Assembly: GCA_937120965.1 (NCBI GenBank)
Contig: CAKZKA010000157.1
Span: forward strand, 1-63,700
From: an uncultured Chloroflexota bacterium
GTDB taxonomy: Bacteria > Chloroflexota > Chloroflexia > Chloroflexales > Chloroflexaceae
Length of the DNA stretch: 63,700 nt
Reading direction: 5' to 3'
A model generated the notes under the pieces. That model was not told the DNA's origin. It searched no databases and saw only the letters and a program-made list of their open reading frames with translations. How positions within the stretch are numbered: position 1 is the first letter of the stretch; every line of letters starts with the position of its first letter. Below are positions 28,311 to 33,002 of this stretch, piece after piece. Position numbers and translations under genes: made by a program.

Positions 28311-29732
28311 TCACACCACGACCTTGCCGTTGCGGAGGGGGATCGGCACCTGACTGGGGCCTTCCACCCCGCGTTCGAGCAGCGTGTTGCTGACGATGGC
28401 GCTGGCCCGGCGCTCGAAGACCTGGTTGGTGATCTCGTCCACCAGCGCGATGCTGCCGTTGTAGCCGACAATGGCGCGGCGGTGGTAGCCAAAGCGATCC
28501 TCGACCGGGAAGCCCACCCGCACCAGCGGGATGTTCTCCGCATCGGCGATGAACTTGCCCTTCGAGTGGCCGATGAGCAGATCCACCGGGTGGGCCTTGA
28601 TCCGCTTGTGGAGTTCGTGCAGGTCGCCTTTGAGGATGATCTCGCTCTCCACCCCCAGCTCGCCGGTCAATTCAAGCATGCGCTCGGCCCAGGGCGCGGT
28701 GTCGGCGGCGGTCAGGATGTAGGCGGGCGTCATACCCATCTCGGCCACCAGGCCGACCAGGCCCTCCAGCAGATCCGGGTCGCCGTAGAGGGCTACCCGC
28801 AGGCCGGTGGTGTACATATGCGTATCCACCAGGGCGTCGAGGAGCCGGGCGCGCTCCACCTGCAAGGCTTCGGGAATGGTGTGGTCGGTGATCTCCACCA
28901 GCGTGTCAATGAAGGCGTCGGTGTTGACCAGGCCGATGGGCATGGTCAGCACGTGGGCTGGAACGTTGTAGCGGCGCTCGTAGATGCGGGCCGCCTCGCC
29001 GCCAACGTAGCGTTGCAGCGCGATGGTCGCCAGGGATTTGGAAGAGCTGCGCAGCTCCTCGATCGTGGTGCCGCCGCGGGGGAATGGTGGACGCGGCTCG
29101 TAGTAGCCCCCGTCGAGGGTTTCGGAGTAGTCGGTGAGCCAGAGGCCGTGCAGCCCCATCTCGCGCAGCATGTGCTTCAGTTCGCGGATGTCGCCCGGGT
29201 TGACCCAGCCAGGGATCATGTTGATCTTGCCGTTGGTCTCACCCTTCTTCTTGCGCCGGTCGGGCAGATTGGCGGCGATCTCTTTGAGGAAGTTGTCGAA
29301 GCCAGTGGTGTGGTTGCCGATGTACGAGGGCGTTTTCACCGAGAGAATGGGCACGGTCACCTCGGGATGACGCTCGACGAACTCGTCAATAATCCCCGGC
29401 ACGTCGTCACCGATGGTTTCGGAGAGGCAGGTCGAGCACACGACAATCATCGTCGGATGGAAACGCTCCCAGACGTTCTTGAGCGCCGCCAGCAGGTTGC
29501 TCTTGCCGCCGTAGACGGTCGTCTTTTCGGTGAGCGAGGTGGTGGCCACCTCGACCGGCTCGCGGAAATGGCGCGACATCTGGTGGCGCGGGTAGGTGGC
29601 GCAGCCCTGCGACCCGTGGTTGATGGTGATGGCCCCATGGACGCCGTAGTTGGCAAGCATGGTCCCGATGGGGGCGCAGGAGCGGGTCGGGTTAATGGCG
29701 ACTGCGCGGTCCTGAACAGTTATGCAGCTCAT
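28311..29732 (-). CDS. nifK: Nitrogenase beta subunit (NifK-type)
   Basis: A 473-residue protein. The three P-cluster cysteines are present: Cys19 (TRSCAPIG), Cys44 (NHGSQGCATY) and Cys102 (STCLSETIGDD). TTSLTEKTTVYGG and SVKTPSYIGNHTTGFDN match the NifK/VnfK/AnfK core. It lacks the roughly 50-residue N-terminal extension of the classical Azotobacter-type NifK, so in length it is closer to the alternative or deeply branching forms. With NifD it would form the alpha2-beta2 dinitrogenase. Its start overlaps the nifD stop (ATGA). Confidence 0.93.
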   Translation of the reverse strand: MSCITVQDRAVAINPTRSCAPIGTMLANYGVHGAITINHGSQGCATYPRHQMSRHFREPVEVATTSLTEKTTVYGGKSNLLAALKNVWERFHPTMIVVCSTCLSETIGDDVPGIIDEFVERHPEVTVPILSVKTPSYIGNHTTGFDNFLKEIAANLPDRRKKKGETNGKINMIPGWVNPGDIRELKHMLREMGLHGLWLTDYSETLDGGYYEPRPPFPRGGTTIEELRSSSKSLATIALQRYVGGEAARIYERRYNVPAHVLTMPIGLVNTDAFIDTLVEITDHTIPEALQVERARLLDALVDTHMYTTGLRVALYGDPDLLEGLVGLVAEMGMTPAYILTAADTAPWAERMLELTGELGVESEIILKGDLHELHKRIKAHPVDLLIGHSKGKFIADAENIPLVRVGFPVEDRFGYHRRAIVGYNGSIALVDEITNQVFERRASAIVSNTLLERGVEGPSQVPIPLRNGKVVV

Positions 29733-31156
29733 ACAACCTCCTCGAAGCCATGCGGCGAGTGGTGCTCAGGGGGCGCGGGGCGGGCGCGCTGGCGCAGGGT
29801 TTGCCAGATCGGGGCGTGCAGGGCCTTGTCAATGTCGCGGGCGAAGTTGACCATGCCAACGAAGCCGGCATACGGCCCGGTGTCGTAGGTGTGCCCGTTG
29901 ACGAAGGGTACGCCCAGTTTGTAGGCCAGGTAGCGCTCCTTGTTGCCGGAGATGAACAGGTCGGGCCGACGCTCGTGGAGGATCTCCTCGATCTCTGGCA
30001 CGTTGGGGTTGTCCACCACCAGGGCGCCTTCCTTGAGCTGGCGGAAGATCTTCTGGTAGTCGTCGTCGTGGCCGAAGGTGGTGGCCGCGGTCATCGTTTC
30101 CATACCCAGCTCGCGCAGCAGTTCGATCCAGTGCCAGGCGCGCGGCCCGCCCTGGTAGATGAACACCGTCTTGCCACTCAGGCGCTGACGGTAGTACTCG
30201 ATCCTGGGCTGAATGGCAGCCACCTCGCGGGCAATCACCTCCTCGGCCTCGGCTTCCAGCCCGAAGAAGGCCGCCGTATCGCGCAGCGCCTGTGACATGT
30301 GCTTGATGCCCCACAGGGTGACATCAATGTATGGCGTGCCGTACTTGTCGCGCATCATTTCGGCGATGTAGGTCGCCGAGCGTTGACAGTGGACGACGTT
30401 GAGCGCGGCTTTGTGCATGATCTTCAGGTCTTCCACCGAGACGTTGCCGGTGAAGCGGGTGAGGATCTTGATGCCAAGGGCCTCGAAGAGGTACTCGAAG
30501 GTGCGCAGGTCGTTCTTGATGTTGTAGTCGCCGATGATATTGATTGACCGGCTGAAGTCGCCCTCCGGCTCGACTGAGCCAACGAGATGGCGAAAGATCG
30601 TCTCGTTGCCGACGTGGTGGCCCATAGACTGGCTGACGCCGCGGAAGCCCTCGCACTCGAAGAAGACCACAGGCTTACCGATCAGTTCCTCGGCCTGCTT
30701 GGCCACGTCGCGCCCGTCATCGCCGATCAGCGCCGTCGAGCAGGTGTTGTAGATGAAGACCCCCCTGGCCTCGGGGAACTCCCGGTTGGCCTCGATGATG
30801 CACTGGAGCAGCTTCTTTTCCCCGCCGAAGACGATGTTCGTCTCATTCATATCCGAGACGAAGGTGTACTTCATGTGGAAGTCACTGTCGGCCAGGTGCG
30901 GCCGGTAGCCCCACGAGAAGAAGGCGCAGCCGATCGGCCCGTGAGTGAGCTGAATGACGTCCTTCACCGGGCCGCCGACCACACCGCGGCAGCCGGCGTA
31001 GGTGCAGCCGCGCTCAGTCATATCGCCGGGTGTCGTGGCCGTGTTGCTGGCGACAAAACACCCCGAGCCGTCACCGCGCTGGCACCCGCCGTCCGGCCCT
31101 TTCAGGGCGATATGGATGGCGCGTTCGGGAAGGGTCTCATTGCACTTGAACTTCAT
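29729..31156 (-). CDS. nifD: Nitrogenase alpha subunit (NifD-type, deep or alternative lineage)
   Basis: A 475-residue protein with all key residues: P-cluster Cys51, Cys77, Cys139; cofactor ligands Cys257 (VVHCQRS) and His422 (NGHTYDTGPY); and equivalents of Azotobacter Val70, Arg96, Gln191, His195, Arg359 and Lys426 at Val59, Arg85, Gln176, His180, Arg339 and Lys406. Several stretches, such as QGGPRAWHW, KYTFVSDMNE and VNGHTYDTGPYAGFVG, are nearer to VnfD/AnfD than to classical NifD, but no vnfG/anfG delta-subunit gene is present. A catalytic role in N2 reduction is plausible from the ligands; the cofactor metal cannot be told from sequence alone. Overlaps nifB and nifK by four bases each. 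Confidence 0.93.
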   Translation of the reverse strand: MKFKCNETLPERAIHIALKGPDGGCQRGDGSGCFVASNTATTPGDMTERGCTYAGCRGVVGGPVKDVIQLTHGPIGCAFFSWGYRPHLADSDFHMKYTFVSDMNETNIVFGGEKKLLQCIIEANREFPEARGVFIYNTCSTALIGDDGRDVAKQAEELIGKPVVFFECEGFRGVSQSMGHHVGNETIFRHLVGSVEPEGDFSRSINIIGDYNIKNDLRTFEYLFEALGIKILTRFTGNVSVEDLKIMHKAALNVVHCQRSATYIAEMMRDKYGTPYIDVTLWGIKHMSQALRDTAAFFGLEAEAEEVIAREVAAIQPRIEYYRQRLSGKTVFIYQGGPRAWHWIELLRELGMETMTAATTFGHDDDYQKIFRQLKEGALVVDNPNVPEIEEILHERRPDLFISGNKERYLAYKLGVPFVNGHTYDTGPYAGFVGMVNFARDIDKALHAPIWQTLRQRARPAPPEHHSPHGFEEVV

Positions 31157-32168: not shown

Positions 32169-32180
32169 TGCAATCTACCA

Positions 32181-33002
32181 TCAATCTACGATGCCGTACT
32201 CGCGCATCAGGTCCTCGAGTTCGTCCTGGGTGATGGGGGTGGGGATGGTGAACTCGGTGTTGGCGTCGATCTTGCGGGCCAGTTCGCGGTACTCCTCGGC
32301 CTGGGGCAGGCCGGGGTCGTAGTCAATGACGGTCTTCTTGTTGATCTCGGCCCGCTGCACGTCTTTGCTGCGCGGCACGAAGTGGATCATCCGCGAGTTG
32401 AGCCGCCGGGCAAACTCCTCGACCAGGGCGCGCTCGTTTTCGACCAGGCGCGAGTTGCAGATCAGGCCGCCCAGCCGGGCGTAGCCGCGCTCGGCGAACT
32501 TCTTGATGCCCTTGCAGATGTTGTTGGCCGCGAAGAGCGCCATGTACTCGCCTGAACAGACGATATAGATCTCCTCGGCATAGCCTTCACGGATCGGCAT
32601 GGCGAAACCGCCGCATACCACGTCACCCAGAACGTCGTAAAATACGTAGTCGAGATCGTCATTGTAGGCCCCCAGGCTCTCGAGGGTCTGGATGGCCGTG
32701 ATCACCCCGCGCCCGCCGCACCCGACTCCCGGCTCCGGTCCGCCCGATTCGACACACTTGACGGTTGCGTACCCGGGCACCATCACCCGGTCGAGGTTGA
32801 CCTTCTCGGCCCCGAAGTCGCGCAGCGTATCGAGCACCGATGGTTGACGAACGCCGCCCAGTAGCAGTCGCGTACAATCGGCCTTGGGGTCACATCCGAC
32901 GACCATCACCTTCTTGCCCATCGAGGCCAGGGCGGCTGCAATGTTCTGCTGGGTGGTAGACTTGCCGATCCCGCCTTTGCCGTAAAATGCTACCTGACGC
33001 AT
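32181..33002 (-). CDS. nifH: Nitrogenase iron protein NifH
   Basis: A 273-residue P-loop ATPase, the obligate electron donor of nitrogenase. The nucleotide loop GKGGIGKST is at 8-16; the 4Fe-4S ligands are Cys95 (GVGCGGRGV) and Cys130 ([11 protein letters not shown]); Arg98 corresponds to the ADP-ribosylation site. Switch regions and [22 protein letters not shown] are those of true NifH rather than of BchL/ChlL. It is the first gene of the operon, with AAGGAG before the ATG at 33002, and is separated from nifB by a 116-base spacer with a large hairpin, a usual way to give more NifH than NifDK. Confidence 0.96.

Follow-up and report, generated by a model that had tools for sequence, protein, structure and literature searches.

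A probable NifEN-independent nitrogenase operon of the Roseiflexus type, and a conserved fifth gene beside it, in a Chloroflexaceae genome

How can a nitrogenase be made from a gene set that lacks nifE and nifN, the genes for the NifEN scaffold? This question is raised by a nifH-nifB-nifD-nifK operon in the DNA of an uncultured, photosynthetic Chloroflexaceae bacterium, on a stretch of 63,700 nucleotides (the window; contig CAKZKA010000157.1 of assembly GCA_937120965.1, here C157). We consider, with a probability of roughly 0.8, that the operon encodes a NifEN-independent molybdenum (Mo) nitrogenase of the Roseiflexus type, in which NifDK would be its own scaffold and homocitrate would most likely come from the lysine pathway. 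This explanation is largely published, and the system itself is new for this lineage. Added here are a nif-linked fifth gene, a route to homocitrate and a class-wide count. The features concerned are the following, where aa stands for amino acids and orf5 is a label of this analysis:

32181-33002, minus strand: nifH, nitrogenase iron protein, 273 aa (TIGR01287, 445.6 bits, cut-off 394.35)
31153-32064, minus strand: nifB, the radical S-adenosylmethionine (SAM) maker of NifB-co, 303 aa (TIGR01290, 319.9 bits, cut-off 343.65)
29729-31156, minus strand: nifD, alpha subunit, 475 aa (TIGR01862, 550.9 bits, cut-off 486.05)
28311-29732, minus strand: nifK, beta subunit, 473 aa (NCBIfam equivalog, 366.7 bits, cut-off 427.3)
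28043-28310: gap of 268 bases between nifK and orf5, with three copies of a dispersed repeat (near 28073, 28165 and 28253)
27830-28042, minus strand: orf5, the fifth gene, 70 aa, downstream of nifK

The four nif open reading frames (ORFs) are each open and full length, in the order nifH-nifB-nifD-nifK. nifH and nifB are spaced by 116 bases, and four-base overlaps join nifB to nifD (31153-31156) and nifD to nifK (29729-29732). The sequence-only reading had described intact genes with these overlaps, and its coordinates agree with ours; its four-gene operon was incomplete, since the small fifth gene belongs to the cluster. The NifB alignment covers positions 8-279 of the 441 in the TIGR01290 profile, so that the protein stops after the SAM domain and has no NifX-like tail. 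Pairwise ratios of nonsynonymous to synonymous substitution rates (dN/dS) were 0.09-0.14 for nifD and nifK against four congeners and 0.04-0.09 for nifB and nifH against three (nifH alone 0.04-0.08). The neighbouring genes malQ, recF and an isomerase (putative, read by eye) are common to the three congeners with long enough contigs, which indicates that the operon does not lie on a contaminant contig. The repeat in the nifK-orf5 gap is GC-rich and palindromic (around GGGGAAACCCGGTTTCCCC) and was found at 21 places in the window where shuffled sequences lead one to expect 0.05; besides the three copies in the gap, its positions include 5634, 12107, 22566, 26761, 57165 and 63578.

The assembly of 5.18 Mb in 307 contigs is rated 100% complete and 0.37% contaminated. 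A search of all of it with PF00148 returned six genes, NifD and NifK, BchN and BchB (both on C112), and BchY and BchZ (both on C165), the last at 522.6 bits against a cut-off of 529. All six are thus assigned to other functions than nifE or nifN, neither of which was found in the assembly, in agreement with what had been noted for the window. The outcome named beforehand as refuting that observation, both genes at another place in this genome, thus did not occur. A 948-aa open frame on C165 was considered as a NifEN fusion and rejected, as it consists of two genes, BchY and BchZ. The full-length NifH-type proteins of the assembly are three, namely NifH, BchL and BchX.

We then extended the count to the class. 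NifD of this type is present in 32 of 158 genomes, with 75-100% identity where a full copy was listed; the copy of genome G037 is split across two contig ends (83% identity). In none of the 32 did a second match to the NifE profile appear at E<=1e-60, the sole match being the NifD gene. Several of these genomes are more than 99% complete, and G064, of the Roseiflexus type, is a single contig. By comparison, the canonical controls Moorella, Desulfovirgula, Methanothermococcus and Thermodesulfatator gave two strong NifE-profile matches each, the lower one at 316-367 bits, while 21 of the 26 genomes of the comparison set had no second match above 160 bits. The curated NifE cut-off is a poor test: it was passed by none of the 158 genomes of the class, and also by none of the 26 comparison genomes, known NifE carriers included. 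As genuine NifEs miss it too, what counts in our argument is how many strong matches a genome has. The NifEN-less trait is uniform across the nif-bearing genomes searched in the class, and the earlier comparison with Roseiflexus, which has the same gene order and the same lack, was correct.

More than six PF00148 matches occur in 10 of the 32 nif-bearing genomes, and the extra pairs were classified among the matches listed. Those of G001, G030, G037, G085 and G086 were tried as hidden scaffolds and rejected, since none exceeds 169 bits against NifE; the window's genome does not have them. Two relatives carry a nitrogenase-like HD fusion, a NifH-type and a NifD/NifE-type domain joined in a single ORF (locus L064, 1429-3723, G001, 764 aa; L065, 556-3138, G030, 860 aa), each followed by a 431-aa NifK/NifN-type ORF, and no NCBIfam equivalog was reached. 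Nitrogenase-like D/K pairs are found at L059 (2956-5737 and 15375-18257, G085), L062 (G086), L063 (G001) and L067 (G037). They are 20-31% identical to the references used, and their host genomes also carry nifHBDK.

The active site is kept in full at the positions compared. NifD retains the P-cluster residues Cys51, Cys77 and Cys139 and the cofactor-pocket residues Cys257, His422, Arg85, Arg339, Gln176 and His180. Altogether 17 of 17 pocket and P-cluster positions match Mo-nitrogenase in an alignment with 12 NifE and 28 other NifD rows, and the position of His422 is Pro or Arg in all 12 NifE rows. For NifK, the rows compared also have Cys at the positions of Cys19, Cys44 and Cys102. Cys62, Cys88, Cys154, Phe381 and Lys426 are what we take to be labels of the Azotobacter vinelandii protein among these positions. 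For the Roseiflexus strain RS-1, it is reported that His422 and Arg85 correspond to A. vinelandii His442 and Arg96 (PMC11573651).

How such an enzyme could be assembled was described for RS-1. N2-reducing NifDK was obtained there in the absence of NifEN when NifH, NifB and apo-NifDK made in E. coli were combined with molybdate, SAM and homocitrate (PMC11573651, PNAS 2024). Homocitrate and SAM were essential, there was little activity without molybdate, and vanadium was no substitute (PMC11573651). The window's NifD and NifK are 87% and 89% identical to proteins of a Roseiflexus metagenome-assembled genome (MAG), and its NifD groups with Roseiflexus NifD in our tree (98/90). On the strength of this identity and the RS-1 biochemistry, we take the same mechanism as most likely. 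NifB would make the [Fe8S9C] precursor, NifB-co, which would pass directly to apo-NifDK. On that protein, and with the participation of NifH, one Fe would be swapped for Mo and homocitrate attached, giving the iron-molybdenum cofactor (FeMo-co). NifDK would thus be its own scaffold first and the N2-reducing enzyme afterwards. By analogy we infer that this operon would support FeMo-co assembly on NifDK and N2 reduction, and that the organism may be a diazotroph. Of the alternatives first offered for the locus, maturation directly on NifDK therefore gains support from the in vitro work (PMC11573651) and from the kept NifD and NifK ligands.

The proposed mechanism calls for homocitrate. As had been noted for nifV in the window, no dedicated NifV was found: none of the 32 nif-bearing genomes, that of the window included, has a TIGR02660 match over the cut-off. 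NifV-like matches of 380 aa in relatives were rejected, as they proved to be lysine-type homocitrate synthases. The congener G025 has such a synthase over the cut-off (TIGR02146, 432.1 against 413.55 bits). After it come genes for both subunits, large and small, of a homoaconitase-type enzyme, for a dehydrogenase and for a LysX-type protein, a set that amounts to the aminoadipate route to lysine. The window's genome holds the remainder of this cluster on C171, from 196 bases into that contig and at 85-90% DNA identity. C171 starts with 195 bases of the dispersed repeat directly before the homoaconitase gene, and the repeat probably broke the assembly there. Since the contig begins inside the repeat where the synthase sits in the congener, the synthase of the window's genome was probably lost in an assembly gap.

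The most likely source of homocitrate is the aminoadipate (LysW) pathway of lysine synthesis, in place of a dedicated NifV. A homocitrate synthase over the cut-off is present in 42 of the 158 genomes of the class, 17 with nif and 25 without, which marks it as a lysine gene and not a nif gene. In G064 a divergent relative of 503 aa, which at 83 bits does not reach the cut-off, lies beside LysX and an aminoadipate kinase. The main text of PMC11573651 does not mention supply from the lysine pathway and contains 'nifV' and 'homocitrate synthase' zero times; for Viridilinea, nifV is reported absent (PMC6346205). Our literature search, with supplements outside its coverage, gave no paper tying Roseiflexus or Chloroflexus to lysine-derived homocitrate. 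The suggestion that missing parts lie elsewhere in the genome therefore holds in part: nifE and nifN are absent from the assembly, and homocitrate probably has its source in the lysine pathway.

To place the fifth gene, 18 loci were compared, the window and 17 others. An ORF of 67-82 codons on the same strand lies downstream of nifK in 14 of them. In 12 of these the two genes are 31-268 bases apart (45-221 bases for the three congeners whose contigs are long); in L095 and L096 a cysteine-desulfurase-like gene stands between them. Of the four loci without it, L092 is on a contig that stops just past nifK, and the other three lack the gene. A profile built from the 14 copies matched 29 of the 32 NifD-bearing genomes and none of the other 126 of the class. 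Outside the profile set, 15 of 18 nif-bearing genomes have orf5 (it is missing in G070, G085 and G086). Among 400 genomes of the phylum there were 16 strong matches, all from the nif-bearing set, and two more at E 0.005-0.01. The Roseiflexus genomes of the survey have it, as do the Viridilinea and Oscillochloris records. In frame, dN/dS is 0.16-0.27 against four congeners, whereas the two shifted frames contain stops and give ratios of nonsynonymous to synonymous proportions (pN/pS) of 0.77-1.93. orf5 is under purifying selection.

No Pfam or PHROG family matched orf5 up to E=1, no PDB sequence did so below E=0.25, and the window copy had only two NCBIfam matches, far below the cut-off (E 0.03-0.06). 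An AlphaFold2 model from 20 sequences has five strands and a disordered stretch of the first 12 residues (mean predicted local distance difference test score 79). Fold searches with it gave no Foldseek match at E<=0.001 and a best VIA Z of 4.4; with no match above noise, no function is read from the fold. There is no invariant Cys or His among the copies, which speaks against a part as ligand of a metal cluster. The neighbours of orf5 in relatives include a protein with a NifX-type FeMo-co-binding domain (L095), a Mop molybdenum-binding protein (L096) and a solute-binding protein (L076), so that a role in the handling of cofactor or metal is a reasonable guess. Regulation is an alternative. 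Three of the 18 Chloroflexota loci (L076, L087 and L088) have genes for NifI1 and NifI2 inserted between nifH and nifB, as do the archaeal nifHBDK loci L120, L122, L123 and L124; the window has neither gene. Locus L095 (2390-9557, G005) is an extended operon: a ferritin-like gene separates nifH from nifB, and nifK is followed by a cysteine-desulfurase-like gene, orf5, a 119-aa ORF and a Nitro_FeMo-Co domain protein.

Judged by its linkage, orf5 would be a lineage-specific accessory of the operon, most likely a helper that binds NifDK and acts in delivery of the cofactor, in protection or in regulation. More tentatively, and on balance rather doubtfully, the Chloroflexales nifHBDK might be a five-gene system with orf5 as dedicated partner of the self-scaffolding NifDK. 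As such it could prop the cofactor pocket open or shield apo-NifDK during the assembly of FeMo-co in place, or it could replace the switch-off role of NifI1/NifI2, kept in archaeal relatives and lost in most Chloroflexales. If true, this would explain why the four proteins are active in vitro (at 48 degrees) and yet no growth on N2 has been seen where the conditions or the partners are not the right ones. The in vitro activity of the RS-1 system is below the values of canonical nitrogenase. The words 'downstream', 'hypothetical', 'small protein' and 'accessory' do not occur in the main text of PMC11573651; no literature search aimed at orf5 was made.

Was NifEN lost, or did this lineage never have it? 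According to PMC11573651, and to one model in PMC7216921, the absence is primitive and the lineage split off before the NifD/NifE duplication. The tree with NifE that had been suggested for the locus was built with 40 rows, comprising 10 of 16 NifEN-less NifD, 12 of 13 canonical NifD, 10 of 12 NifE and 8 of 35 NifK/NifN sequences. The near-duplicates L154, L155, L163 and L175 were excluded from this and a second tree, and the long-branched NifE of L171 from this one. The published placement of Chloroflexota (Clfx) sequences near the root (PMC7216921) speaks for an early split, as does the separation of the NifEN-less clade from canonical NifD (100/99). However, when rooted with NifK, the tree has a branch (100/99) in which the NifEN-less clade stands together with canonical NifD and with two NifE-like proteins of archaea. 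Bacterial NifE falls outside this branch, though its own grouping is weak (82/56). Constraining canonical NifD and all NifE together without the NifEN-less clade was 14.1 log units worse (approximately unbiased (AU) test, p 0.020), and 12.6 units worse with bacterial NifE only (p 0.027). Monophyly of all NifE was rejected (p 0.016), and that of all NifD, at a cost of 5.6 units, was not (p 0.092). These are four uncorrected tests with an outgroup branch 2.3 long, and they count weakly against the early split. We take the tree as mild evidence that NifEN was lost or replaced, and as mild evidence against the pre-duplication reading of PMC11573651, which we hold to be unlikely, if far from negligible. 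Archaeal NifE-like proteins of Archaeoglobaceae and Methanothermococcus (L164, 9339-12028; L168, 4727-7866; L170, 11415-14274), in which Arg replaces the FeMo-co His, group with the Chloroflexota NifD clade and not with bacterial NifE (99/94 in the 40-row tree; the fork is not resolved in the other).

Some observations weigh against a NifEN-independent Mo-nitrogenase. Growth without fixed nitrogen was never seen for R. castenholzii and RS-1, as reported in PMC11573651 and PMC9241655. NifD, NifK and NifB all score under the NCBIfam equivalog cut-offs. For NifK and NifB this is as expected for a divergent clade; NifD reaches 464.7 bits against 653.55 for the nifD equivalog and passes the subfamily TIGR01862. 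A homocitrate synthase was not found in the window's assembly, which has one weak PF00682 fragment on C24. Finally, in a MAG of 307 contigs the loss of a fragment with nifE and nifN is not strictly excluded, though their absence recurs across the class.

Could the cofactor be simpler than FeMo-co, as had also been proposed? NifDK would then hold NifB-co (the L-cluster) without Mo or homocitrate and catalyse another reductase reaction, like methylthio-alkane reductase (Mar). Mar, too, has genes of the NifB, NifH, NifD and NifK types, and its [Fe8S9C] cluster carries no homocitrate (PMC12552129). The missing proof of growth of clade isolates without fixed nitrogen would fit this too. We regard it as very unlikely, because the NifDK of RS-1 reduces N2 and requires both Mo and homocitrate (PMC11573651), and because the His, Arg and Gln of the Mo-nitrogenase pocket are retained in the window. 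Moreover, NifD scores 122 bits to the MarD chains 9fmg/9d9u but 326-491 bits to nitrogenase alpha chains in the PDB. The Mar His ligand sits on a distinct Mar-specific loop (PMC12552129), whereas His422 is at the nitrogenase position, with Gln and Arg. A Mar-like function was therefore rejected on similarity and ligand position.

Just as improbable is a relic, with the operon out of function or repurposed. What speaks for it is the lack of observed diazotrophic growth in Roseiflexus isolates, and that nitrogen fixation was called unlikely in PMC9241655. A relic would, however, hardly fit the dN/dS of 0.04-0.14 across the four nif genes, the retention of all ligands and the position beside the same neighbour genes in three congeners; in addition, Roseiflexus nif transcripts are reported from hot springs (PMC9241655, PMC11788075). 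Most remote of all is a canonical system whose NifEN was missed by binning or at a contig gap, for although there are 307 contigs and the homocitrate synthase seems lost into such a gap, none of the 32 nif-bearing genomes has an extra NifE-profile match at E<=1e-60 and the canonical controls yield a strong second match, at 316-394 bits, in the same search.

Among known systems, NifHBDK of Roseiflexus RS-1 (PMC11573651) is closest to the operon, with the same gene set, order, absence of nifEN and NifD ligands. It differs in lineage, and the window's system is known here from its sequence. The nifHBDK genes of Viridilinea and Oscillochloris (PMC6346205) come from the same order of bacteria, and nifEN and nifV are reported absent; the paper names four genes, and we found orf5 in both records. 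The 'methane seep group' nitrogenase of anaerobic methanotrophic archaea (ANME) also lacks nifE and nifN and has a NifD related to Roseiflexus (PMC9012536), a lack and a link that were already published there. Unlike the window, it has the order nifHI1I2DK, NifI regulators and no adjacent nifB, and orf5 was not found in the loci of this group that we compared. Methanoperedens likewise shows nifH-I1-I2-D-K without adjacent nifB. Mar resembles the operon in its nitrogenase-like DK, its H and NifB-like proteins and in that no NifEN step is proposed for it, and differs in the low MarD-NifD score, the other His loop and the absence of homocitrate (PMC12552129). With canonical nifHDKENB the operon shares homologous NifH, NifD, NifK and NifB and the P-cluster and FeMo-co ligands, but it is without NifE and NifN and has nifB between nifH and nifD. 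The order nifHBDK without an adjacent second D/K pair occurs also in SZUA-158, Hydrothermarchaeota, BMS3Abin16 and two Bathyarchaeota MAGs. Two further MAGs, of unstated completeness, Methanolinea UBA477 (L156) and Methanoregulaceae UBA467 (L169), have NifH, NifD and NifK with next NifE-profile matches of 157 and 113 bits, and are possibly also NifEN-less.

No gene set for FeMo-co is known that is smaller than that of the NifEN-free nitrogenase, which is a target for the engineering of nitrogen fixation. To this, the window contributes a further lineage with the complete set of active-site residues. Our tree bears on a standing question, that of an ancestral or a secondary absence of NifEN, and lysine biosynthesis is a concrete, testable candidate source of the missing homocitrate. 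When 'nifHBDK' alone is transplanted, orf5 would be left behind.

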